Shown: one piece after another, positions 1-18,646 of the stretch
Layout of the letters: each line of letters starts with the position of its first letter
Numbering within the stretch: position 1 is the first letter of the stretch
Translations under genes and position numbers: made by a program
Notes under the pieces: model-generated
Database searches by the model: none
What the model saw: the letters and a program-made list of their open reading frames with translations, nothing else
Told to the model about the DNA's origin: nothing
Assembly (NCBI GenBank): GCA_004963905.1
Contig: SUGL01000024.1
Span: 33,501-97,500 of the forward strand
Direction: 5' to 3'
Source of the DNA: Mesorhizobium sp.
GTDB lineage: Bacteria; Pseudomonadota; Alphaproteobacteria; Rhizobiales; Rhizobiaceae
DNA: 64,000 nucleotides

Positions 1-904
1 ACCCCGTCACTTCGCCGAACAGCATGTCCGGCGTTCCCGACATGCCCTCGCGCGAAGTCCGTTTGAGCAGCACCTGCTCGGGCCTGAGCATGATGCGGGC
101 GACGTCGCGCCGCTCGGCCGTGTCGACCGCGATGCGGCCGAGCGGCGAGATGGCAAAGCCGTCTGCGATCTTGGCCGGCACGATTATGGCATCGCCGAGG
201 AACTCGGCAACCATCCTGTCCTTGGGCTGGAAATAGAGCTCGCGCGGCGTGCCGACCTGCGAGAACAGGCCGTCGCGCATGACGGCCACCTGGCTGGCGA
301 AGGATAGCGCCTCGGCCTGGTCATGGGTGACCAGGATGGTGGTGATGCCTGCCTCTTCCAGAAGCTCGGCAACTGCCTTGCGCATGGATGCGCGCAAGCC
401 GGTGTCGAGCGCCGAGAACGGCTCGTCGAGCAGCATCAGCCGCGGCTTCATGGCCATGGCGCGGGCAAGTGCGACGCGCTGCTGCTGGCCGCCGGACAGC
501 TCGTGCGGCCGGCGCTTCAGCACCGCCTTGTCGAGGCCAACGATATAGGCGAGCTCGACGATGCGCTCCACGCGCTTGTCCTCGCCGCGCGCCATGCCGA
601 AACCGATATTGTCGGCGATGGTGAGATGCGGGAACAGCGCGCCGTCCTGTGCCACCACGCCGATGCCGCGGCGATGCGCCGGCACGGCTGCGCCGCCATT
701 GGCGAGCACCTTGCCGTCGAGCGCTATGCGGCCGCGGTCCGGCGCTTCGAAGCCGGCGATCAGCCTGAGCAAGGTGGTCTTGCCGCAGCCGGACGGCCCG
801 ACGATCGCGGTGCGGCTGCCGCTTTCGACGGTAAGGTCGACACCGGCGAGCGCGGCCACCTTGCCGTAATATTTCGCCACATCGTTGAGTTCGAGGAAGC
901 TCAT
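1..904 (-). CDS. fbpC: Iron(III) ABC transporter ATP-binding protein, C-terminus cut by window edge
   Basis: This is the ATPase subunit that powers ferric-iron import at the inner membrane. The reading frame runs off the left edge, so about 301 residues are visible out of about 350 usual for FbpC. Walker A (GPSGCGKTT, about residues 36-44), the Q-loop, the signature LSGGQQQR and Walker B with [12 protein letters not shown] are intact, followed by a TOBE-like C-terminal part. The ATG at 904 overlaps the TGA of the permease gene by four bases (ATGA), which fixes the start and indicates translational coupling. The partners are the permease and the binding protein immediately upstream. The sequence fits the Fe3+/spermidine-type ATPase family; iron is inferred from the binding protein in the same cluster. 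Confidence 0.9.
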
Positions 905-2475
905 CGTCCGGCCATCCGCTTCGACTGGACGTGGAGCATCAAGGTCATCGGCAGCGACATCGCGACCATGATCAAGGCGTAGGGTGCTGCGGAGGCGTAG
1001 TCGATCTCGCCGCTGTAGGACCAGAAAGCCATCGCCAGCGTGCGGGTGCCGTTCGGCGCCAGCATCTGGGTGGCGGTCAGTTCGTTGGTGATGCCGAGCG
1101 CCACCATCGCCATCCCGGCCGCCGCGCCCGGCGCCGACAGTCGGATCGTCGTCGCCCACAGCGCCCTGAGCGGCGGCAGGCCGAGACTGGAGGCGGCGCG
1201 CTCGAGCTCCACCGGGGCCTGCGCGATCGAGGCGCGCAGGCTTATCAGCGCGCGCGGCAGGAACATCAGCGCATAGCCGAAAAGGATGGTGAACAGCGTC
1301 TGGTAAAGCGGCAGCGCGATGCGCACGGTGATGGTCACCAGCGCCAGCGCGATGACGACGCCGGGCAACGATCCGACGATGTAGTTGCAGCTCTCGAGCA
1401 GGCGCTGCAACGGGCCTGGCGCGCGGATCGAGATCCAGGCCATGGGCATCGCGGCAATGGTGGCAAGCAGCGCGCCGGCGACGGCGAGGAACAGCGTCTG
1501 GCCGAGCGCCAGGCCGATTTCGTCCCAGCGCCAGATATCGGCGCCGCCGGCGAGCAGCCAGCGGCCGACGGTGACGAAGGGCACGCCGAGCGTGAGCAGC
1601 GCGGTGGCGGCGGGCAGCAGCAGGCAAGGCAGCGTGGCGCGGCCGAGCCGGACACGCTGCTGCTGGCGCGCCGCGCCAGAGCCGACGCGCGCATAGCGCT
1701 CCTCGCCGCGCACGACCACCTCCACGGCCAGCAGCACGAAACAGCAGGCGACCAGCACGGCGGCCAGCATGTTGGCCGCCGGGCCGTTGAAGGTCGACTG
1801 GAACTGGTCGACGATCGCCGTGGTGAAGGTGTCGAAGCGGATGAAGACATAGAGGCCGTATTCGGCAAGCAGATGCAGGCCGACCAGCAGCGAGCCGCCG
1901 CAGATGGCCAGCCTCAATTGCGGCAGCACGACACGCGCGAAAACGCGCCACGGGCCGAGGCCAAGGGCGGCCGCCGCGTCCTCCAGCGCCGGGTCGAGGC
2001 GGCGCAGCGCCGCGGCTATCGGCAGGTAGAGGAACGGAAAATAGGCGATGACGGAGACCAGCACGCCGGCCCAGAGCCCGTGCAGGCCGGGCACGAGACT
2101 GATCCAGGCGTAGCTATGGACGAAAGCAGGAATGGCGAGCGGCGCCACCGACAGCCACGACCACAGCCGGTTGCCGGGCAGGTCGCTGCGCTCGGTCAGC
2201 CAGGCGAGCGCCACCGACAGCACGATGGCGACCGGCACCGACACGACGACGAGCAGGACGGTATTGACCAGGAGCTCGCCGACACGCGGCCGGAAGATCA
2301 GTTCCAGCACCGTTCCCCAGCCGGTCTGGATCGCTGTCCAGACGATGAAGGCGAGCGGCAGCAGCGCAATCAGCGAAACGAGGGCGGCGGCAAGCGTGAT
2401 CCACGACGCGGACCGCCGGCTCTGCCTTGCGGCAGCCGGCAGGCCTGGACGCGTGAGATGGATCGCGGACGCCAT
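901..2475 (-). CDS. fbpB: Iron(III) ABC transporter permease (FbpB type)
   Basis: A 524-residue inner-membrane permease of the fused FbpB kind, with two homologous halves of about six membrane segments each. Each half carries an EAA loop that docks the ATPase: one near residue 165-190 ([15 protein letters not shown]) and one near residue 430-450 ([15 protein letters not shown]). A single-chain duplicated permease is typical of ferric-iron transporters of the AfuB/FbpB family, which also have one ATPase. It overlaps the ATPase gene by four bases. A gap of about 160 bases separates it from the binding-protein gene upstream; that gap contains a weak GC hairpin with a T-rich tail that may attenuate transcription. 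Confidence 0.9.
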
Positions 2476-2559
2476 CAGAAGGAATGTGCCGCCTTGAAGC
2501 GATGCGATGAACCGCCGATGCGGCCGGGAACGCAGATGATCGTCATCGACGAGGCCATC

Positions 2560-2610
2560 TCCAAAACAAAAGCGCCCCCGCGGAAAGCGAATTCCCGCAG
2601 GAGCACGGTC
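2560..2610 (-). terminator. Possible attenuating hairpin between fbpA and fbpB
   Basis: On the minus strand, a short imperfect GC stem (GCGGGAA paired with TTCCGC, one bulge) is followed by a T-rich stretch TTTTGTTTT. It lies in the gap between the binding-protein and permease genes, where partial termination commonly lets the binding protein be made in excess. The stem is short, so this is tentative. Confidence 0.3.
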
Positions 2611-2636
2611 GGTTGTCCTTTTAGGACGAACGCGAA

Positions 2637-3644
2637 CTAAAGCAAGCCGGCTTGCGTCATCAGATCGATGACCTTCTTGGAGTTCAACTTCACCGGGTCG
2701 ACTTTCGGCGCCTGCAGGTCGGCGAGCGGTACCAGCTTCGGGTTGGACTCCTCGCCCTTGCCGACCGCGTATTCATAGGATGTGCCGGTCTTCAAGACCT
2801 CCTGGCCGCCCTTGCCGGTGACCCATTTCAAGAAGGCCTGTGCTTCCTTCGGATGTTTGCTCGAGGCCAGAACGCCGCCGCCGGAGATCGACACGAACGC
2901 GCCCGGATCCTGGTTCTTGAAATAGTGCAGGCCGACGCTCTTGCTATTCTCGCCGGTCTTTGCCTGATCGCCGAAATAGTAATAGTGGTAGATTACGCCG
3001 CCATCGATCTCGCCGGCATTGACCGCCTTCATCACCGTCGAGTTGCCCTTGTAGGCGGTGGAGTTCTCCTTCATCGCCTTCAGCCAGTCGGCGGTCGCGG
3101 CCTCGCCCTTGAGCTCAAGCAGGGCGCTGACTATGGCCTGGAAGTCGGCGCCGGACGGCGAGGCGGCCCAACGGCCCTTCCAGCTCGGATCGGCGAGGTC
3201 GAGCAGCGACTTGGGCAACTGGTCTTCCTTGAGCTTGTCCTTGTTGTAGGCAAAGACGGTGCTGCGGGCGGCGACGCCCACCCACTTGCCGCTCGAGGGC
3301 TGGTATTCCTGCGGAACCTGGGCCAGCGTGTCGGCATCGACCGGCGCGAAAAGGCCGGCCGCCTCGACCAGCGCCATGGCGGGCGAATTCTCGGTCAGGA
3401 ACACATCGGCCGGCGATGCAGCACCCTCGGCGACGATCTGGTTGGAAAAATCGCTGTCGCCGCCATTGCGCAGCGTGACCTTGATGCCGGTTTCCTTGGT
3501 GAAGCCCTTCGCCCATTCCTTGGCGAGGCTCTCATGCTGGGCGTTGTAGACGATGATGCCGGCATCCTCGGCCAGGGCCGGCGCGGCGAGCAGGCTGGCT
3601 GTCAACGCAACAGCGCCGGCAAGGGTGGAAAGAGCATATTTCAT
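2637..3644 (-). CDS. fbpA: Iron(III) ABC transporter periplasmic substrate-binding protein
   Basis: A periplasmic binding protein of about 335 residues of the FbpA/AfuA (ferric-ion transferrin-like) family that hands iron to the FbpB/FbpC transporter. The N-terminus is a Sec signal peptide (charged MKYAL start, hydrophobic core, cleavage after APALA). The cluster of adjacent tyrosines in [12 protein letters not shown], about residues 210-221, matches the Tyr-Tyr iron ligand pair of FbpA proteins. I chose the ATG at 3644 because GAGGACC precedes it at ribosome-binding distance and it starts the signal peptide exactly; the frame is open 66 bases further upstream. It is the first gene of the iron cluster and lies behind an IRO-box-like sequence. 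Confidence 0.9.
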
Positions 3645-3701
3645 GGCATGGTCCTCGATCTTCGTGATCCGCCCCGGGAGGCGACTGCACCTACCAATAC
3701 C

Positions 3702-3716
3702 TGATAGCAATAGTCA
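3702..3716 (-). promoter_or_regulatory. IRO-box-like site (RirA operator) upstream of fbpA
   Basis: The sequence TGA-N9-TCA occurs 58 bases upstream of the fbpA start codon in an AT-rich patch. This is the consensus described for the iron-responsive operator bound by RirA in rhizobia. Only six bases are fixed, so chance occurrence in a given promoter is a few percent; the match to an iron uptake gene makes it credible. Confidence 0.5.
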
Positions 3717-3918: not shown

Positions 3919-3999
3919 TCAAAGCCGTTCGGCTCGTACCTTCAGGATCTGGTACAGCAGCTCTCGAATGCGCCGCCAGATCGTCAATGGCCTGGGCAT
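3919..3999 (-). CDS. Possible 26-residue small protein at the end of the guanidine operon
   Basis: An ATG at 3999 is preceded by the purine-rich GAGAGGCGGAG and opens a 26-residue frame, MPRPLTIWRRIRELLYQILK followed by six more residues, ending in TGA. The predicted peptide is basic and amphipathic-helical. It starts 40 bases after the stop codon of the HupE-like gene on the same strand. No family is recognised; the only support is the ribosome-binding site, the position and the plausible composition. Confidence 0.3.
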   Translation of the reverse strand: MPRPLTIWRRIRELLYQILKVRAERL

Positions 4000-4038
4000 G
4001 GCTCCGCCTCTCGTTCGTGCGATCCTTGAGCCGCCGGT

Positions 4039-4632
4039 TCAGATGAGCTGCGCGGCCAGCGCCACTCCGACCAGCGAGGTGCCGATCCCTGCCGCGCGGA
4101 TAGCCGCCGGCCGGCTCCGCAACGTCAGGGCGGCCAGCGCTCCGGTCGCGTGCAAAGCCGAGGTGCTGGCGAGGAAGCCGATCGCATAGGCCATGCCACC
4201 GACCGTCTCCGGAATCTCAAGACCATGGGCGTTGCCGTGGAAGAGGCCGAAGAGCGCCGTCAGCGTTGCGGCGAAGGCAAGCGGAAACGGCCTGGCGAGC
4301 GCGACCATGGCGCCGAAAAACATCAGCGACAGCGCGATCCCGGTCTCCAGCGACGGCAGGCCGATACCGGCGATCCCAAGCGTGGCCCCCGCGACCATCG
4401 CCGCAACGAAACACGCCGGCACGAGGATGGCGGCCCTGCCGCCGGTTCGCGCCGCAATGATGCCGACCGACAGCATCGCAAGCAGATGGTCGATGCCGGC
4501 CAGCGGGTGTTGAAGGCCGCTCAGAAGGCCGTGGACATGAAAGCCTCCGCTGTGAGCGAAGGCCAGTGACGGTGTGAGAGTTGCCGCGACCGCCGGAGCA
4601 AGCCTGGTGAGAACGGAAAGCATTCTGTTCAT
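4039..4632 (-). CDS. HupE/UreJ family nickel permease
   Basis: A 197-residue membrane protein of the HupE/UreJ family, secondary nickel (sometimes cobalt) permeases that accompany urease and NiFe hydrogenase genes. A signal-like N-terminus ends in PSLAFAHSGGFHVHG, and the family hallmark HPLAGIDHLLAM lies at about residues 42-53, followed by about six membrane segments. Histidines in HSGGFHVHG are likely metal ligands. There is no urease or hydrogenase gene nearby; instead it closes an operon with a metal-dependent ureohydrolase and a histidine-rich protein, so its probable job is nickel supply to that enzyme. The start at 4632 is used; a second ATG three codons in is an alternative. Confidence 0.85.
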   Translation of the reverse strand: MNRMLSVLTRLAPAVAATLTPSLAFAHSGGFHVHGLLSGLQHPLAGIDHLLAMLSVGIIAARTGGRAAILVPACFVAAMVAGATLGIAGIGLPSLETGIALSLMFFGAMVALARPFPLAFAATLTALFGLFHGNAHGLEIPETVGGMAYAIGFLASTSALHATGALAALTLRSRPAAIRAAGIGTSLVGVALAAQLI

Positions 4633-4681
4633 GGGTCTGAACCTTGTTTGAAAGAGGGAGGATCCGGGTCGAAACCGGCGT

Positions 4682-5218
4682 TCACTGTCCGGGCATAGCG
4701 ATTTCGGCCGCCGCGGACCTGTCGATCAGAAGTCGTGCCTCGCCGAAATCGAGAGGCCGCTGGCCATTGCCGTCATGGTAGACGAATGCCAGGCGGCGCC
4801 GGTGTGACGTCAGCCTCGCGGGCAGCGGGTTGTAGGTCACGCCGGCGCCGCCGATCAGCGGCATCACGGCGCCGACATCGACGATATCCTGCGTCTCGAC
4901 CCGCAGCAGGTGCAGCCGCCGGCCGTCGGTGGTTTCGCCGAGGAACGGAATGCCGGCGAGCCGCAGGAAACTGGATGGATCGGGTGCCCGCGCGAACCCG
5001 TCGAGAAAGGCTGTCTCAACGAGATCGAGATCGGTCGCGCGCGGGTCGGCCGGCTCGGGCGCATGCTCGCGCGGCAAATGCGGCGTCTGCCACTGCAACG
5101 GCTTGCCGGCCGGCCCGTTGTGGCCGACGGCGTGCGGATGGTGATGGTGGCCGGTCGGGCCGTGATGGTGGTGGCCGTCGCCATGATCGTGGCCGTGGTG
5201 ATGATGATCATCGTGCAT
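4682..5218 (-). CDS. Histidine-rich protein of unknown family, candidate nickel chaperone
   Basis: A 178-residue soluble protein with no family I recognise. The first 33 residues contain 17 histidines in HHHH blocks separated by G and D, the composition of nickel-storage tails in HypB, UreE and SlyD. After a proline-rich linker the remaining 120 or so residues (from about LDLVETAFLDGF) look like a folded alpha/beta domain with no obvious motif. The gene begins three bases after the stop codon of the ureohydrolase and is followed by the nickel permease, so it is probably an accessory protein that binds or inserts nickel. It is not HypA- or HypB-like: there is no zinc CxxC pair and no P-loop. 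Function is inference from composition and context. Confidence 0.7.
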   Translation of the reverse strand: MHDDHHHHGHDHGDGHHHHGPTGHHHHPHAVGHNGPAGKPLQWQTPHLPREHAPEPADPRATDLDLVETAFLDGFARAPDPSSFLRLAGIPFLGETTDGRRLHLLRVETQDIVDVGAVMPLIGGAGVTYNPLPARLTSHRRRLAFVYHDGNGQRPLDFGEARLLIDRSAAAEIAMPGQ

Positions 5219-5220
5219 GG

Positions 5221-6429
5221 TCAAAAGCTCGCCGGCTTGTCGATGATGGATTTGTGCTTGCCCAGCGTGCCATGGGCGACCATCGAGCCGAGCGCCTCGA
5301 CGACGACCCGCACACCGAACAGCGCGGTGATGTCCGAGGTGTCGTACGGCGGCGAAACCTCGACCACTTCCAGCCCGCAAATGCCGGGCGCCGAGACCAG
5401 CCCGAGCAGCTTCAGCGCCTCGCGCGGCAGGAAGCCGCCGGGCTCGGGCCAGCCCGTGCCTGGTACGAAACCACAGTCGACGCTGTCGACGTCGAAGGAA
5501 ATATAGACGGCGTCTGCGTCCTTCCACGCCAGATCGAGCGCGATCTCCGCGGTCTTCTCCAGGCCCATCTGCTCGATGTCCGAAATCGTCAGCACGTTGG
5601 TGCCGCGCTTCCTGGCCTCTGCCACGCCATAGCGGGGCACCTGCCAGCCGCCGATGCCAAGCTGCACCAGATTGGTGGCCGAGACGTTCGGCAGGTTGGT
5701 CGCCCAATACCAAGGCGTGGTGTGCATGCGCTCGTCGAGATCCTTTTCCTGGATATCGATGTGGCGGTCGAAATGGATGATGCCGATGCGCTTCGAGGTG
5801 ACGTCGGCGATGCCGCGCACGCAAGGAAACCCGATCGAATGATCGCCGCCCAGCATGATCGGCAGCGCGCCCGAGGAGGCGACGTGGCTGACACCCTTGG
5901 TGATCTGGTCGAAGCTCTTTTCGAGATTGGCCGGAATGGTGAAGACGTCGCCGGCGTCGCACAGCGTCATCTGCTCGCGCAGGTCGACGCCCAGCTCGTA
6001 GTTGTAAGGCGTGTAGAGTGCCGAGATGCGACGGATGCCCTGCGGCCCGAAACGGGTTCCCGGACGGTAGGTGGTGCCGCTGTCGAAGGGAATGCCCATG
6101 ACGGCAGCGTCGTATCGGCCGACATCGCGGACATTCTCGACATAGGGCGCCTTGAGGAAGGTGTTGATGCCGGCGAAATGCGGCAGCTCGCCGCGCGCGA
6201 AGGTCGGGATTGACTTGTCGGTGATCGAATCCGATCCGGGCAGGCCCATGTCCAGCGCCCATTGCTGTTCCTTGCGCCAGCCGTCCTCGGGCAGCTTTCC
6301 TTCCGCCTCGATCGACTTCCAGCCCTGCGTGTCGCGGATCTCGAAGTTGGGATGATGCAGGCGCTGGCGCGGCTGGCGATCAAACAGCCCGGCCCGGCGG
6401 TGCCGGCGCGCTCGAATGTCTCTGTGCAT
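5221..6429 (-). CDS. gdmH: Ureohydrolase, probable nickel-dependent guanidine hydrolase (GdmH-like)
   Basis: A 402-residue member of the arginase/agmatinase superfamily, predicted to hydrolyse guanidine to urea and ammonia. Metal ligands are all present: GGDHS (His197), DRHID (Asp221, His223, Asp225) and SFDVDSVD (Asp313, Asp315). It departs from agmatinase in a long N-terminal extension of about 80 residues, in HTTPWYWAT after the second metal motif, and in DCGFVPGTGWPEPGG where agmatinases have a Leu-Asp-Pro type sequence. These features, as I recall, match Synechocystis GdmH rather than agmatinase. The guanidine-I riboswitch at the head of the operon is strong independent support. The ATG at 6429 has GGAGG seven bases upstream. 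An agmatinase or guanidinobutyrase activity cannot be excluded. Confidence 0.8.
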   Translation of the reverse strand: MHRDIRARRHRRAGLFDRQPRQRLHHPNFEIRDTQGWKSIEAEGKLPEDGWRKEQQWALDMGLPGSDSITDKSIPTFARGELPHFAGINTFLKAPYVENVRDVGRYDAAVMGIPFDSGTTYRPGTRFGPQGIRRISALYTPYNYELGVDLREQMTLCDAGDVFTIPANLEKSFDQITKGVSHVASSGALPIMLGGDHSIGFPCVRGIADVTSKRIGIIHFDRHIDIQEKDLDERMHTTPWYWATNLPNVSATNLVQLGIGGWQVPRYGVAEARKRGTNVLTISDIEQMGLEKTAEIALDLAWKDADAVYISFDVDSVDCGFVPGTGWPEPGGFLPREALKLLGLVSAPGICGLEVVEVSPPYDTSDITALFGVRVVVEALGSMVAHGTLGKHKSIIDKPASF

Positions 6430-6442
6430 GAAAAAACCTCCG

Positions 6443-7252
6443 TTACGACGCCGTCGTCGCGATTGCGCTGTCCAGTCGGGTCGTCCCGACCATCGCGGCC
6501 ACTTCGGCCACGTCTCGTGCGGAAGCCCGGCTCTTGCGGTCGAGCTTCAGATCGTAGGTGATCGTCGCGCCGTAGGCGGACGGAAACTGGGGATCGTGGC
6601 GCACCTTGTCGAAGACAAGCACGCGGGTACCAAGCTTGAAGGCCTCGCCGATGTCGTGGGTGACCATGACCACGGTCATGCCGTGCTCGTTCCACAGCTC
6701 GGTAAGCAACTCGTGCATCTCGACGCGGATGCCCGGATCGAGCGCCCCGAACGGCTCATCGAGAAGCAGGATCTGCGGCCGGCCGAGCAGGGTCTGGGCG
6801 ATCGCCAGCCGCTGCTGCATGCCGCCGGAGAGCGATGCCGGATAGAGGTCGCGCGCATGAGCGAGGCCGACGCGCTCCAGCATGGTTTCGGCCTCCTGCC
6901 GCGCGCTTTTGCGCCTGGCGCCAAAGACGCGGCCGAAAGGTCCGCCGGAGCGGAAGTCCTCGACCAGCAGCAGATTCTGCAGCGCGGTCAGATGCGGAAA
7001 CACCGAGTAGCGTTGGAAAACGATGCCGCGCTGCGGCGTCGGTTCCGGCACGATCGGCCGGTCCCCGATGACGACCACGCCGCCGCTCTGCTGCTCCTGG
7101 CCGAGCAGGATGCGCAGGAAGGTCGATTTTCCGCAGCCGCTGGCGCCGACCAGCGACAGGAATTCGCCGGGCTCGGCGGTGACGCTCACGCGCTCCAGCA
7201 CGCGGGCGTCGCCGTAGCTCTTTTCCAGGCCGTGGACGACGATGCGGCTCAT
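6443..7252 (-). CDS. Guanidine (predicted) ABC transporter ATP-binding protein
   Basis: A 269-residue ATPase of the nitrate/sulfonate/taurine (SsuB/TauB) family. Walker A is GASGCGKST (about residues 36-44), the Q-loop FQRYSVFPHL, the signature LSGGMQQR and Walker B ILLLDEPFGALD, with the switch histidine in VTHD. The ATG at 7252 overlaps the permease stop codon (ATGA). It lies between the permease and the ureohydrolase gene and is under the same riboswitch, so the imported substrate is most likely guanidine rather than a sulfonate. Confidence 0.9.
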   Translation of the reverse strand: MSRIVVHGLEKSYGDARVLERVSVTAEPGEFLSLVGASGCGKSTFLRILLGQEQQSGGVVVIGDRPIVPEPTPQRGIVFQRYSVFPHLTALQNLLLVEDFRSGGPFGRVFGARRKSARQEAETMLERVGLAHARDLYPASLSGGMQQRLAIAQTLLGRPQILLLDEPFGALDPGIRVEMHELLTELWNEHGMTVVMVTHDIGEAFKLGTRVLVFDKVRHDPQFPSAYGATITYDLKLDRKSRASARDVAEVAAMVGTTRLDSAIATTAS

Positions 7253-8151
7253 TTGCCCGACCCCGGATGAGCCCAGGGGGAAACCATGTGCGAGAGCCGC
7301 GCGAGCAGCCAGTCGGTGGCGACGGCGAGCAGCGTTATCCAGACGACGTAGGGCAGGATGACGTCCATAGACAGGTAGCGCCGAACGAGGAAGATGCGGT
7401 AGCCCAGCCCCTCGGTCGAGGCGATGGCCTCCGCCGCGATCAGAAACAGCCAGGCCGGTCCAAGCGCCAGCCGCACGCAGGTGATGAGGCGCGGCATGGT
7501 TTGCGGCAGCACCAGCCTCAGAACCATGGTCCAGCTATTGCCGCCGAGCGTCTGTGCCTTGGCGATGAGCTCGGGTGGCAGTTCCATGACCCGGTTGGCG
7601 ATGTCGCGCACCATGACCGGCGCCACGCCAATGGCGATCAAGGTGATCTTGGCCGTTTCGCCGAGGCCGAGCGCGATGAACAGGATCGGCAACAGCGCCA
7701 AGGGCGGGATGACGCAGACAACGGTGACGAAGGGCAGGAGAAACGCCCTCACGCGCGGGATGAAGCCGATGGCGATGCCAAGCAAGAGCGCCGCCAGCGT
7801 CGCCATGCCGACGCCCGCGAACAGCCTGACCAGGCTGGCATAAGTGTCGGCCCACAGGATCAGGTCGCCGGAGCGCTTGTCCGGCACGGTCGCCAAATCG
7901 AAGAACGCCGACCACATCTGTGCCGGGGAGGGCAGCAGCTTGTCATTGGCGTTGACGGCCAGCCGTTGCGCCGAAGCGGACAGATAGGCCACGGCAACGG
8001 CCGCGAAGGGCAGCGTGCCAAGCAACACCGCTCCGCCACGCGAGACCGTGGCGTTGATCAGGCGAAGCCGCGTCTTCGGCACGCTGGGGGGCGGGCTGGC
8101 TGTGTTCGCGCCCGCCCCGGCTTGCACGGCACCGGTTCCTCTGGCCAGCAT
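7249..8151 (-). CDS. Guanidine (predicted) ABC transporter permease
   Basis: A 300-residue BPD-type permease of the SsuC/TauC family with about six membrane segments. The EAA loop that contacts the ATPase is visible as AKAQTLGGNSWTMVLRLVLP around residues 185-205. The frame is open far upstream through the binding-protein gene in another frame, which is a GC artefact; I chose the ATG at 8151, 12 bases after the binding-protein stop codon and behind AGGACCC. It is translationally coupled to the ATPase by a four-base overlap. Confidence 0.88.
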   Translation of the reverse strand: MLARGTGAVQAGAGANTASPPPSVPKTRLRLINATVSRGGAVLLGTLPFAAVAVAYLSASAQRLAVNANDKLLPSPAQMWSAFFDLATVPDKRSGDLILWADTYASLVRLFAGVGMATLAALLLGIAIGFIPRVRAFLLPFVTVVCVIPPLALLPILFIALGLGETAKITLIAIGVAPVMVRDIANRVMELPPELIAKAQTLGGNSWTMVLRLVLPQTMPRLITCVRLALGPAWLFLIAAEAIASTEGLGYRIFLVRRYLSMDVILPYVVWITLLAVATDWLLARLSHMVSPWAHPGSGK

Positions 8152-8162
8152 GACGATGGGTC

Positions 8163-9227
8163 CTAGAGCGTTCCGGCCGCCGCCTCCGCCATGAAGGCCG
8201 GGTCGAACCGCAGCTTGACGTTTCCGGCATCGCCCAGCGTCGAGCCGTCGGGGAAGCTCATGCCGATCACGTCGACGGTGGGCGCATTGGTGCCCAGAAT
8301 GCCGTGGCTGAACAGGAAGTTGCGGACGAGATCCATCGTCTTGGGCAGTTCGGCGCCCTTGGTGAACTCGACCGCCTTGGCCGGCTCGAAGAACATCGCC
8401 GTCGATGCGAGCTGGGCATCGAAGCCGGCAAGATCGGTGCCGGACGCCTTGGCCATCTCTTCCTTGGCCGCCTTGCCTTCGGGCGTGCCGGAGGTCATCA
8501 GGGCCATCGCTTCGTACCACGCGCCGACGAGCGCCTTGCCGAGCGCCGGATTGTCCTTCAGCGTCGCGGTGTTGACGACCATCAGGTCGATGATCTCGCC
8601 GGGGATCTGCGTCGAATCGAACACCTTGTGAGCGCCCGGCATGGCGACGATCTCCGAGACCAGCGGATTCCAGGTGACGACCGAGGTGACGTCGCCGGTG
8701 CCATAGGCGGCGACCATGTCGGCATCGGAGGTGTTGACCACGGTGATGTCCTTCTCGGCGAGCCCGACCGTATCCAGCGCGCGCGCCAGCAAGTAGTGCG
8801 AGACCGAGAGCTCGACGAGGTTGACCTTCTGGCCGGCAATGTCCTTGAGCGCGGTCTTGTCCTTGAGGATGACGGCATCGTTGCCGTTGGAGAAGTCGCC
8901 GACGATCAGCGCGGTGGTGTCGACGCCGCCTCCGGCGGGGATCGACAGCGCGTCCATATTGGTCATCGAGCAACCGTCGAAGCCGCCGGCAGTGTACTGG
9001 TTGATGCTTTCGACATAATCGTTGATGCGGGTGATCTCGACGTTGATGCCGTATTTGTCGGCCCATTTCTTCATGATGCCGCTGTCGGCGAGATAGCCCC
9101 ATGGCATCCAGCCGACATAGATCGACCAGCAGATCTTGAAGTCTTTCTTGGGCGCCGCTTGCGCGGCCGGGATCAAGGGAAGGCTGAGTGACGCGGCCAG
9201 GATGATTGCAGCCAGCTTGCGAAGCAT
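8163..9227 (-). CDS. Guanidine (predicted) ABC transporter periplasmic binding protein
   Basis: A 354-residue periplasmic protein of the NMT1/SsuA-like binding-protein family. A Sec signal peptide (MLRKLAAIILAASLSLPLIP, cleavage after PAAQA) precedes the mature part, which contains Trp-rich IYVGWMPWGYL and GGFDGCSMTNMDAL, positions that commonly form the ligand pocket in this family. The ATG at 9227 has AAAGGGG upstream; earlier in-frame starts would lie inside the riboswitch leader. It is the first gene after the guanidine-I riboswitch, which is why guanidine is proposed as ligand. Close homologues are often labelled taurine or nitrate binding proteins on family similarity alone. Confidence 0.88.
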   Translation of the reverse strand: MLRKLAAIILAASLSLPLIPAAQAAPKKDFKICWSIYVGWMPWGYLADSGIMKKWADKYGINVEITRINDYVESINQYTAGGFDGCSMTNMDALSIPAGGGVDTTALIVGDFSNGNDAVILKDKTALKDIAGQKVNLVELSVSHYLLARALDTVGLAEKDITVVNTSDADMVAAYGTGDVTSVVTWNPLVSEIVAMPGAHKVFDSTQIPGEIIDLMVVNTATLKDNPALGKALVGAWYEAMALMTSGTPEGKAAKEEMAKASGTDLAGFDAQLASTAMFFEPAKAVEFTKGAELPKTMDLVRNFLFSHGILGTNAPTVDVIGMSFPDGSTLGDAGNVKLRFDPAFMAEAAAGTL

Positions 9228-9245
9228 TGCGTACCCCTTTTTGCG

Positions 9246-9264
9246 GTCCGGATTGCGTCCGGAC
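9246..9264 (-). other. Leader hairpin just upstream of the binding-protein ribosome-binding site
   Basis: A perfect 7-bp stem (GTCCGGA with TCCGGAC) and a 5-base loop lie directly before the AAAGGGG ribosome-binding site. There is no T-run after it, so it is not an intrinsic terminator. It may belong to the expression platform of the riboswitch, exposing or limiting access to the ribosome-binding site. Confidence 0.45.
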
Positions 9265-9328
9265 TTTTGTTGGGGGTTCACGGAGCGCGCATCCGGGAGA
9301 GGTTCGCGCCAGCAAACCCGTGCAGGGT

Positions 9329-9436
9329 TCTCCCGGGATTTTGGCCCGCCGTGTTCCGCCGGATGCCTCAATGCATCCCTGGCGGTTGCGTCTCTCGGAC
9401 CAGCACCGTGATAGACACGGCCGGAACCCTAGACGC
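9329..9436 (-). ncRNA. Guanidine-I riboswitch (ykkC class) aptamer
   Basis: The minus strand carries the ykkC hallmarks in order: CTAGGGTTCCGG, then CTGGTCCGAGAG, then AAAATCCCGGGAGA. The secondary structure agrees: P1 pairs GCGTCT (9431-9436) with AGACGC (9388-9393); P2 is CCGTG/CACGG around TCTAT; P3 is CCGCC/GGCGG enclosing GGATGC/GCATCC. The conserved 3' element CCGGGAGA (9329-9336) can alternatively pair perfectly with TCTCCCGG at 9293-9300, which suggests a ligand-dependent switch between two folds. Guanidine-I riboswitches normally turn genes on when guanidine is present, here the importer and hydrolase. Confidence 0.92.
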
Positions 9437-9454
9437 TCTGCACGCCGGTCACGA

Positions 9455-9471
9455 AGCAAGGGCCATGCCAA
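9455..9471 (-). promoter_or_regulatory. Sigma-54 (RpoN) -24/-12 promoter of the guanidine operon
   Basis: The minus strand reads TTGGCATGGCCCTTGCT, which matches the RpoN consensus YTGGCACGRNNNTTGCW at all positions but one (C to T). The invariant GG and GC are separated by exactly ten bases. The expected start site, about 12 bases downstream near 9444, falls just ahead of the riboswitch P1 helix. This implies nitrogen control through an enhancer protein such as NtrC; I did not find a clear NtrC palindrome upstream. Confidence 0.7.
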
Positions 9472-9701
9472 TCTGAAAAGCACCGGCCCGAGGCTGTTTT
9501 CCCGGGTTCCGAAGCCGACCGCGGCATGCCTATGGCGCAAAAATCATCGCAGCGCCGCCGAAATAAGCAGTATCGTGTCGTGCGACCGTCTCGGATGCTG
9601 CATGGGCCGCGCCTTTTTCGCGAAACTTGAAAGGCGCGGCGGTCGTCGCAAACTTTCGTGATTTTCCGGTACTTTGGCTTGGACATTATTTCGCCGGCCA
9701 C

Positions 9702-9727
9702 GTAACAAACCGGGGCCGAGACGCGAA
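9702..9727 (+). promoter_or_regulatory. ECF16-type promoter, probable autoregulation of the sigma gene
   Basis: GTAACA at 9702-9707 and CGAA at 9724-9727 are separated by 16 bases. The Caulobacter SigF motif is, as I recall, GTAACC-N16-CGAA, so there is one mismatch. It lies 20 bases before the proposed GTG start of the sigma factor gene, as expected for an autoregulated ECF operon. Confidence 0.55.
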
Positions 9728-9746
9728 CATCGGGGGTAAACTTCTT

Positions 9747-10283
9747 GTGACCGGCAAGGACGAAGCCGAACTTTCCCGGCTGCTCAGGGCCGCGATCGCG
9801 GGAGACGAAAGGGCTTATGCCGACTTTCTGCACCGGATAGCCGCTCTCGTTCGCGGCTTCGTCCGGCGCAAGATCGTTCAGGGCGGGGTCGACCCCGAGG
9901 ATGTCGTGCAGGAAACCTTGCTGGCCATTCATGTGAAACGGCATACCTGGCGCGAGGACGCTCCGGTCCTGCCGTGGGTCTACGCGATCGCCCGCTTCAA
10001 GCTGATCGATGCCTTCCGCAGGCGGGGCCGGCGCATCGAGGTCGAGATCGACGAGATCGCCGAGACCTTCGCCGAGCCGGAGGCGGAGACGGTCAGCGAG
10101 CGCGACATAAACCGGGCGCTCGACGGCCTGCCGCCTTCGCAGCGCTCGGTGGTTTCCTCGATCTCGGTCGACGGCCACTCGATCGGGGAAACGGCGGCCA
10201 AGCTAGGCATCAGCGAGACCGCGGTGCGCGTTTCGCTGCATCGCGGCCTTGCCGCGATCGCCAAAAGGTTCGGACGACAATGA
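9747..10283 (+). CDS. ECF-family RNA polymerase sigma factor
   Basis: A 178-residue sigma-70 family protein with only regions 2 and 4. Region 2 runs from about ERAYADFLHRIAALV to VLPWVYAIARFKLIDAFRR, including DPEDVVQETLL; region 4 is LPPSQRSVV followed by a helix-turn-helix SIGETAAKLGISETAVRVSL. I start it at GTG 9747, which follows GGGGGT and begins at the conserved N-terminus; the frame is open 120 bases further upstream. The next gene encodes its likely anti-sigma factor one base after the stop codon. The pairing points to the ECF16-like SigF group that responds to metal and oxidative stress in Caulobacter. Confidence 0.85.
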   Translation: MTGKDEAELSRLLRAAIAGDERAYADFLHRIAALVRGFVRRKIVQGGVDPEDVVQETLLAIHVKRHTWREDAPVLPWVYAIARFKLIDAFRRRGRRIEVEIDEIAETFAEPEAETVSERDINRALDGLPPSQRSVVSSISVDGHSIGETAAKLGISETAVRVSLHRGLAAIAKRFGRQ

Positions 10284-16938: not shown

Positions 16939-17520
16939 TCAGCGGTTCTTGCCGGGAACCCATAGCACGTCGGCATTTCCATTGTCATTGACCGAGCGGG
17001 CGGCGACGAACAGGAAGTCCGAGACGCGGTTGATGTATTTCAGCGCCTCGCGGTTGATGTGCTCGGCCGGGTCCTGCGCCAGCGCCACCATGATGCGCTC
17101 GGCGCGTCGCGCCACTGTGCGCGCCAGATGCAGGGCGGCTGCCGCCGGTGTGCCGCCATTCAGCACGAAGGACTTCAGCGGCTGCAGGCGCTTGTTGAGA
17201 AGATCGATGTCCTTTTCGACGCGCTCGGTCTGCGCGGCGACGATGCGCAGCGGCTCGTAGTCGAGCGGCTTACCCTCGTCCGGCACCGCCAGATCGGCGC
17301 CGAGGTCGAAAAGGTCGTTCTGGATGCGCGAAAGCATGGCGTCGATCGCAGGATGATCCGCTCCGGTGTGCAGGCGCGCCATGCCGATGCAGGCATTGGC
17401 CTCGTCCACCGTGCCATAGGCCTCGACGCGCAGGTCGGATTTCAGCCGCCGCTCGCCGCTGCCGAGCCCGGTGGTGCCGTCGTCGCCGGTGCGGGTGTAG
17501 ATCTTGTTGAGCTTGACCAC
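16939..17520 (-). CDS. pduO: Cob(I)alamin adenosyltransferase, PduO type
   Basis: A 193-residue ATP:cob(I)alamin adenosyltransferase that makes adenosylcobalamin. The family signature KIYTRTGDDGTTGLGSGER (residues 5-23) binds ATP, and the conserved helix has VEAYGTVDEANACIG, FVLNGGTPAAAALHLART VARRAER and NREALKYINRVSDFLFVAAR. I start it at GTG 17520 behind GGAGAACG because it begins two residues before the conserved N-terminus; the frame extends 45 bases upstream. It lies in the same run of minus-strand genes as etfBA and hbdA. Confidence 0.9.
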   Translation of the reverse strand: MVKLNKIYTRTGDDGTTGLGSGERRLKSDLRVEAYGTVDEANACIGMARLHTGADHPAIDAMLSRIQNDLFDLGADLAVPDEGKPLDYEPLRIVAAQTERVEKDIDLLNKRLQPLKSFVLNGGTPAAAALHLARTVARRAERIMVALAQDPAEHINREALKYINRVSDFLFVAARSVNDNGNADVLWVPGKNR

Positions 17521-17542
17521 GTCGTTCTCCTTCCGGCGAACG

Positions 17543-17734
17543 TCATTTGCGAGTGAACCAGACAACCAGCAGGATCAGCGCCAGGGCCACGGCCTGCAGC
17601 AGAACGCGCGCCTGCATCAGCTTGTTGGAGGTCACGCCGGAGCCGCCGCGCATCATGTTGACGAGGCCGCGGATCAGCACGACGACCACGGCGGCCATGA
17701 CGATCAGGGCGAGAATTTTGAAGACGGTTGCCAT
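17543..17734 (-). CDS. Small twin-transmembrane protein, HIG1 domain
   Basis: A 63-residue protein with two membrane segments (about residues 5-24 and 44-60) joined by a basic loop NMMRGGSGVTSNKLMQARVL. This matches the bacterial HIG1 (hypoxia-induced gene 1) twin-transmembrane family, thought to associate with respiratory complexes. It ends 22 bases before the adenosyltransferase start and is commonly found beside it in Rhizobiales, so it is probably co-transcribed. Confidence 0.8.
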   Translation of the reverse strand: MATVFKILALIVMAAVVVVLIRGLVNMMRGGSGVTSNKLMQARVLLQAVALALILLVVWFTRK

Positions 17735-17758
17735 GGGCTGGCTCCAGTTCGGTTTCGG

Positions 17759-18646
17759 TCAGGCGCGCCTGGCGAGCACGCGGTAGAGCGCTGATGCCGG
17801 CAGGATGCGTTTGAGCACCACGCCGATCTTGGCCGGCACCGTTACCACATAGTGCGGGCGCGGGCGCTGTGACAGAAGCGCGTGGTGCAAGGCGGCGTGG
17901 ACGACCTCCGGCCCGGGCTTCAGCCGCGAGACGCTGCCGCCGGCCTGCAGCCGTGCAAGCTGTGCCTTGTAGTCGGCGCGGTGGGCGGAGCGCTCGATGT
18001 CGATGTTCTTCAGGAACCACGCCAGGCCGTTGCTGGCGATCTTCGAGGTCACCGGCCCCGGCTCGATCAGCGAAAGGTGGACGCCGCTGCCTTCGAGCTC
18101 CTGGCGCATGCACAGCATCAGGCCTTCGAGGGCATGTTTCGACGCCGAGTAGGCGCCGCGAAAGCGGACCGGAGCGAGCCCCAGGATCGAGGAGCAGTGG
18201 ACGAGGCGGCCGTGGCCCTGGCGGCGCATGACCGGCACGATGCGCCGCGTCAGATCGTGCCAGCCGAAGAAGTTAGCCTCGAACTGCTCGCGCAGCGCCT
18301 CCACCGGCAGGTCCTCGACGGCGCCGGGCTGTGCGTAGGCGCCGTTGTTAAACAGCGCGCCAAGCGTGCCGCCCGTGCGCTCCAGCACGGCGTCGGCCAG
18401 CGCGGCGATGGATGCCGGCTCACGATAGTCGAGATAGAAGGCCTCGATGCCGTCGGCCTCGAGAGCGGCGATGTCGGCCGGTTTGCGCGCCGTGGCGAAC
18501 ACGCGCCAGCCTTCCGCCCGCAACGCCCGCGCGCAATAGGCGCCGATCCCTGAGGAGGCGCCGGTGACGATGATGCTGCGCAACTGTTCAGCAGTGGGCA
18601 ACGTTGTCTGATCCCGGGGTTGCCATTTGCCGCAATCACTTCCCAT
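17759..18646 (-). CDS. Short-chain dehydrogenase/reductase
   Basis: A classical SDR-family NAD(P)-dependent oxidoreductase of about 280-295 residues. The cofactor motif TGASSGIG is at about residues 28-35, NNGA at about 100, and the catalytic Ser and YSASK near residues 152 and 165. The C-terminal extension with HYVVTVPAKIGVVLKRILP is typical of a subgroup in alphaproteobacteria whose substrate is unknown. The start is uncertain: ATG 18646 is used, but TTG codons at 18601 or closer to LRSIIVTG would give a more standard N-terminus. It is divergent from the YihY gene with only about 38 bases between starts. Confidence 0.8.
   Translation of the reverse strand: MGSDCGKWQPRDQTTLPTAEQLRSIIVTGASSGIGAYCARALRAEGWRVFATARKPADIAALEADGIEAFYLDYREPASIAALADAVLERTGGTLGALFNNGAYAQPGAVEDLPVEALREQFEANFFGWHDLTRRIVPVMRRQGHGRLVHCSSILGLAPVRFRGAYSASKHALEGLMLCMRQELEGSGVHLSLIEPGPVTSKIASNGLAWFLKNIDIERSAHRADYKAQLARLQAGGSVSRLKPGPEVVHAALHHALLSQRPRPHYVVTVPAKIGVVLKRILPASALYRVLARRA

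Follow-up and report, generated by a model that had tools for sequence, protein, structure and literature searches.

Which protein fills the metal site of a probably nickel-dependent guanidine hydrolase in a genome where HypA is not found? The question arises from a guanidine operon of the soil bacterium Mesorhizobium sp. (GCA_004963905.1, contig SUGL01000024.1), which we analysed in a window of 64,000 nucleotides (positions 33,501-97,500, forward strand). The operon combines a guanidine-I riboswitch, an ATP-binding cassette (ABC) importer, a hydrolase of the GdmH clade, a small histidine-rich protein (here HisR) and a HupE/UreJ metal permease. Riboswitch, importer and hydrolase have been described before. 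The novelty lies in HisR, which is probably a single-protein nickel chaperone of GdmH. The original prediction for this DNA held that different proteins meet the nickel need here, with equal weight on HisR and HupE. To us that idea is the best explanation, provided that the key role goes to HisR and not to HupE.

Profile searches (Rfam, Pfam and NCBIfam) and open reading frames bear out the predicted composition: the riboswitch and six packed genes follow one another on the minus strand from 9443 to 4039, and the originally proposed span of 3919-9471 encloses this unit with a slight excess at each end. The substrate-binding protein and permease genes are 11 nucleotides apart, the permease and ATPase genes overlap by 4, and gaps of 13, 2 and 49 nucleotides separate ATPase from gdmH, gdmH from hisR, and hisR from hupE. 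Because of this spacing and the common strand, we infer that the six genes form one transcript. The riboswitch scores 79.3 bits against RF00442 (gathering score 63, E 1.8e-12), and the stretch 9443-9200, which includes the aptamer itself, folds with a z of -3.0 relative to shuffles. Judging from the leader's letters, its hairpin could mask the ribosome-binding site and is thus a putative expression platform. The importer's substrate-binding protein scores 554.5 bits (cut-off 333.9) against TIGR03427, a model named putative urea ABC transporter binding protein; in this operon it is a probable guanidine-binding protein.

The hydrolase is closest in the PDB to 7esr/7oi1, the Synechocystis GdmH (E 8e-161), and to 9fek, the N. 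inopinata guanidinase (E 2e-154). The next entry, a guanidinobutyrase (5e-50), trails them by roughly a hundred orders of magnitude in E-value. The identities of 7OI1 and 9FEK are given in PMC11410670 (here and below, papers are cited from excerpts). In a tree of 42 sequences, 34 fall in a GdmH clade (support 100/99). The window's enzyme is inside it together with the two tested guanidinases; outside lie guanidinobutyrase, guanidinopropionase, proclavaminate amidinohydrolase and the genome's five other arginase-family genes. This agrees with the GdmH-like character first proposed, with the qualifications that the tree tool flagged long outgroup branches, that characterised agmatinases were left out and that 1wog was compared by E-value only. 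Within the clade, an alphaproteobacterial subclade has 28 members (support 100/99), and HisR lies beside gdmH in all 28.

The window's enzyme has the arginase-family motifs GGDH, FDRHID and FDVD together with GTGWPEPGG. All 34 clade members share ERMH and an Arg within the DRH motif; GTGWPEPGG is present in 33, and our own alignment would place the GdmH-type Trp in it (Trp305/313 is discussed for the guanidinase in PMC11410670). At locus L111 the GTGW motif is altered to GTGT, so this member may not be a guanidinase. The operon's enzyme is probably nickel-dependent and would split imported guanidine. Metal and guanidine activity in the alphaproteobacterial subclade are predictions from sequence, which counts against this reading and would allow hydrolysis of some other guanidino compound. 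We consider another substrate highly improbable, given that the clade and active-site motifs are shared with two tested guanidinases and that a guanidine-I riboswitch lies upstream on the same strand in most relatives.

Those relatives are the best 80 GdmH loci in the GTDB collection (79-99% identity to the window's enzyme). A loose pattern finds the upstream riboswitch in 72 of them, and Rfam adds four of the remaining eight (L029, L033, L035 and L038), with none found in L043, L050, L077 and L078. Among seven more diverged loci, Rfam finds the riboswitch in five and none in L118 and L121. Importer-less loci, mostly from Ancylobacter, are informative here: in 10 of the 12 looked at, the riboswitch stands straight before gdmH and hisR, so these two genes form a minimal riboswitch-controlled pair. 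The exceptions are L043, where the riboswitch was not found, and L049, where the only one is about 7.5 kilobases (kb) upstream.

HisR is a constant and specific neighbour of gdmH in the sampled genomes. In 79 of the 80 loci its gene comes immediately after gdmH, and in the lone exception (L057, Jiella endophytica) it is found at 17263-17763 on the minus strand, about 7 kb from gdmH and on the opposite strand from it. A complete importer was found in 62/80 loci and HupE within 4 kb in 41/80, with loci cut by contig ends scored as lacking the gene, which departs from the equal weight first given to HisR and HupE. In a class-level sample of 289 genomes, GdmH occurs in seven (E <= 1e-100), all with HisR alongside; an eighth HisR match is a fragment. 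A phylum-level sample of 398 genomes also gives seven GdmH genomes (E <= 1e-80), all from the same class and all with HisR adjacent. As two genomes are common to both samples, the total is 12 distinct GdmH genomes, the window's own included, with HisR adjacent in 12/12.

Plasmids give a further view of this specificity. Among 72,556 plasmid records, GdmH is found in 11 (E <= 1e-80) and HisR in seven (core query, E <= 0.01), and these seven are exactly the alphaproteobacterial GdmH carriers. The other four GdmH plasmids are actinobacterial, and HisR is found in them neither by the core query nor by a profile applied to about 15 kb of each. These four records and the two published enzymes in the tree make up the GdmH sample outside Alphaproteobacteria, so a limitation of HisR to that class rests on a small outside sample. 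One of the four, a Rubrobacter indicoceani plasmid (L095:6783-14391), carries a guanidine-I riboswitch, gdmH, a sodium:solute symporter gene, a formamidase gene and urease genes, without HisR.

Two other lines were set aside. The sole case of HisR independent of GdmH is a fragment in genome G125 (L117:7118-7360) with an internal stop and with GdmH absent from the 16 kb examined, and we take it for a remnant. By eye, the surrounding stretch (L117:4306-7360) holds a MacB-like ABC exporter with a histidine-rich stretch, followed by this orphan HisR-core fragment. Co-evolution was discarded as evidence: HisR and GdmH distances correlate with r 0.91 over 30 loci (0.25-0.32 for GdmH and importer), and the value falls to 0.45 in the main clade, so the high figure reflects a deep split.

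Why a loader other than HypA/HypB would be needed follows from the rest of the genome. HypA was not found in the 450 contigs of this assembly (completeness 100), and the HypB model has a single match of 80.8 bits (cut-off 121.2), at a UreG-type gene. If GdmH uses nickel, other proteins must therefore load it; this part of the original idea holds, and loading by HisR stays a proposal. Within the 80 loci, one query, E. coli HypA, did not find HypA, and HypB matches there are limited to two of about 31 bits; one more, of 26 bits, is at the diverged locus L118. Across 27 genomes with HisR, HypA was not found in 19. The UreG-type gene is part of the urease cluster, where genes for UreD, UreF, the urease alpha subunit and a further HupE also lie, on a different contig from the riboswitch. 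Contrary to the original suggestion, the module is therefore not self-contained. The genome has three HupE/UreJ genes (noted for contigs C155 and C333), one with urease, one in the operon and a third elsewhere.

This urease cluster, with its UreD, UreF, UreG-type GTPase and own HupE, makes it conceivable that urease accessory proteins load GdmH and that HisR is a side player. We judge this very unlikely, since those genes lie on another contig than the riboswitch and since HisR accompanies gdmH in every one of the distinct genomes from the two samples.

HupE, and NikR in some loci, give the chaperone reading a link to nickel, and HupE also bears on another alternative, in which HisR is a store or detoxification buffer for HupE-imported nickel rather than a specific GdmH loader. 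Nickel transport is reported for the HupE of R. leguminosarum (Brito 2010, as cited by PMC12537917), and the window's copy scores 171.6 bits against PF04955 (cut-off 23). In five Ancylobacter loci, nikR and hupE lie just upstream of the riboswitch, gdmH and hisR; the NikR of L033 is above the cut-offs of the NCBIfam NikR equivalog models, and those of the remaining four loci resemble it. In ten loci without HupE, none of the next one or two same-strand genes behind HisR, as predicted by a crude gene caller, looks like a nickel transporter by eye (no family search was made). A long tail of variable length would suit a store, but HisR tracks gdmH rather than hupE (it is present in 38 of the 39 loci without HupE nearby), its diverged histidine-poor members (L120 and L121) are still kept beside gdmH, and it has a conserved folded core. 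A store is thus unlikely.

HisR itself is a two-part protein. Its tail is histidine-rich and predicted with low confidence, with 19 His ahead of the core in the window's copy and a median of 15 over 78 sequences (counted up to the WQ motif, or over the first 40 residues if that motif is absent); its length varies. The core of about 100 residues is modelled with high confidence (mean predicted local distance difference test 88.8, predicted template modelling score 0.76). Over 31 representatives, near-invariant core residues include F71, F75, D80, L85, R86, P91, G116, P120, Y129, P133 and Y147 (window numbering), and no near-invariant core position is His or Cys; the core therefore looks like a docking domain and not a metal site. 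Ahead of it, H33 and N34 are each conserved in 26/31 and H47 in 28/31. Our alignments, and the counts at the N-terminus below, omit L011 (runs of N), L066 (broken N-terminal frame) and L117 (fragment).

Searches assign HisR to no known family. It matches no Pfam or NCBIfam model at E 0.001, HypA and HypB models included; at E 1 a minority of members match a few histidine-rich or unrelated families, with histidine-rich transporters and the like at E 0.056 or weaker. The PDB gives no sequence match (best E 0.74), and a fold search there gives no usable match, with best E-values of 0.2 for the full model and 0.09 for the core (TMq 0.35), which is not proof of a new fold. Two annotated records call it only "hypothetical protein", and a literature search gave no earlier description among the matches listed, with the founding papers of the guanidine field outside its scope.

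The very start of the tail is conserved as well. In 87 locus sequences, an in-frame ATG begins M-H in 73 and M-(A/P)-H in nine; this count of 82 accepts any in-frame ATG bearing the motif, which is the first ATG in 76. Starts were moved by hand to a later motif-bearing ATG in L042, L059, L069, L096, L098 and L115 (for L096 and L098 this agrees with the start codon in the deposited annotation) and, in L064, to a later ATG without the motif. Initiator Met usually stays in place when His follows and is cleaved off when Ala or Pro follows, so the mature protein is predicted to have His at position 2 (His2) in 83/88 sequences, and in 30 of the 31 representatives (under 70% identity), whose remaining tail is 28% His. 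L081, L112, L113, L114 and L123, which repeat the window's or other loci's sequence, were dropped from this count. It rests on sequence and predicted starts, and a binomial figure for it ignores ancestry and is not a probability. Elsewhere in the tail, His is found at position 3 in 3/88, at 5 in 64/88 and at 7 in 66/88. His at position 3 is the pattern of amino-terminal copper/nickel (ATCUN) sites, and three Bradyrhizobium HisR proteins (L056, L073 and L064) begin M-R-H or M-G-R-H, which would place His at mature position 3. Nickel binding by HypA uses His2 and the amine of the first residue, and a HypA with one extra residue ahead of His2 is deficient (PMC5557546). As far as sequence and predicted starts go, HisR bears a striking likeness to this site.

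These features can also be read as those of a hydrolase subunit with a structural or regulatory role, with the His residues secondary. The conserved core with its invariant non-metal residues, the constant position beside gdmH and the loss of the tail in some members all fit such a role, but His2 is retained even in members whose tail is short or gone (L120 and L121), and some of the loci have nickel genes clustered around them. On balance a subunit role is quite unlikely.

We therefore return to HisR as a nickel chaperone of GdmH, for which we propose the following scheme. Guanidine, the presumed substrate and inducer, would allow expression through the riboswitch, which would control both import and hydrolysis. 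The ABC importer would bring guanidine in, GdmH would convert it to urea and ammonia, and a urease coded elsewhere would finish the pathway. The two-metal centre of GdmH would contain nickel, as in characterised relatives. HupE, where present, would raise the nickel supply, and HisR would hand nickel to GdmH in place of a HypA/HypB-type pair. In HisR, nickel transfer may take place at a HypA-like site made of the free amino end and His2; the long tail may act as a nickel reservoir, and the core may dock on GdmH, whose metal site would then be filled.

Several results weigh against this scheme. As nearest relatives, the 80 loci are not independent of one another, and of the 12 genomes from the two samples at least four besides the window's own (G440, G365, G649 and G107) are among them, leaving seven new genomes. 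In the main clade, the HisR-GdmH correlation lies within the range of the importer genes (0.34-0.52), showing no closer tracking. Positions 5 and 7 are likewise His in 20 of the 31 representatives, which makes His2 the peak of a histidine-rich stretch and not a lone site. L120 has lost its tail except for one His (P-H-D is kept), and L119 lacks both His2 and a long tail; neither feature is thus a strict requirement. Eight of the 27 HisR genomes do encode HypA, and no HupE was found nearby in 39/80 loci. The N. inopinata guanidinase is active, and the excerpt of PMC11410670 reports no nickel chaperones found in that genome (HisR was not looked for), with the purified enzyme under-loaded and its loading route called unclear. 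Metformin hydrolase is active in nickel-supplemented cell extracts without chaperones, and chaperones are needed for growth (PMC11271267).

A broader claim is more tentative, and we put it at somewhat short of even: HisR may be a new family of GTPase-free, single-protein nickel chaperones in the alphaproteobacterial GdmH branch, with a core fold outside the PDB and a HypA-type X-His site reached independently and kept across the change from M-H to M-(P/A)-H via Met removal. Maturation of hydrogenase and urease depends on nickel systems that comprise several proteins and use GTP. If the proposal is true, a HisR-type loader would be a much simpler maturation system than these, and a family so far labelled hypothetical protein would gain a function. 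Possible uses are the production of active recombinant guanidinase and the tracing of soil and plant-associated bacteria that use guanidine as nitrogen.

Table 1. Features of the guanidine operon in the window
Feature	Position	Strand	Basis
Guanidine-I riboswitch aptamer	9328..9443	-	Rfam RF00442, full-length model match
Leader, aptamer to first ATG	9228..9327	-	hairpin with flanking CCCC/GGGG (sequence read)
Substrate-binding protein, NitT/TauT type	8163..9227	-	TIGR03427; PF13379
ABC permease	7249..8151	-	PF00528; ATG read at 8151
ABC ATPase	6443..7252	-	PF00005
Guanidine hydrolase, GdmH clade	5221..6429	-	PF00491; PDB matches, tree, motifs
HisR, His-rich tail and folded core	4682..5218	-	no family match; conserved beside gdmH
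HupE/UreJ metal permease	4039..4632	-	PF04955

Two neighbouring units complete the picture of the locus. After the operon, at 901-3710 on the minus strand, lies a second ABC import unit with a two-domain permease and a substrate-binding protein that weakly resembles 2-aminoethylphosphonate binding proteins (below the cut-off); the present data give it no tie to guanidine. Divergent from the riboswitch (9627-10283, plus strand) is an open reading frame that by eye resembles an extracytoplasmic function (ECF) sigma factor, with a membrane protein encoded next to it.

Among known systems, the Synechocystis GdmH operon is alike in its guanidine-I riboswitch, ABC importer, GdmH and in-operon nickel-loading genes, and its GdmH is nickel-dependent and loaded by two accessory proteins from that operon (PMC12186494, PMC11271267). 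Its loader is the pair GhaA/GhaB, whereas here the proposed loader is one small protein that matches neither HypA nor HypB and has no GTPase family match. GhaA and GhaB are a pair of the HypA/HypB type. The N. inopinata guanidinase operon shares the riboswitch and a GdmH-clade enzyme but has an amino acid-polyamine-organocation (APC) permease and, as far as the excerpt goes, no nickel chaperone found (PMC11410670). The metformin hydrolase cluster is an already published case of a nickel ureohydrolase with HupE, but it uses hypA and hypB and its enzyme is heteromeric (PMC11399263). That enzyme is distant from the window's hydrolase (E about 5e-37).

Histidine-rich stretches are typical of UreE, HypB and similar nickel proteins. 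HisR has such a stretch, yet no Pfam or NCBIfam match joins it to them; HypB is itself called His-rich in PMC11399263. HypA has no sequence match to HisR, nothing in the HisR core corresponds to its four-Cys zinc site, and the long His tail belongs to HisR. What the two have in common is a His at position 2 by a free N-terminal amine, a resemblance and not membership, and any such likeness would be convergence.

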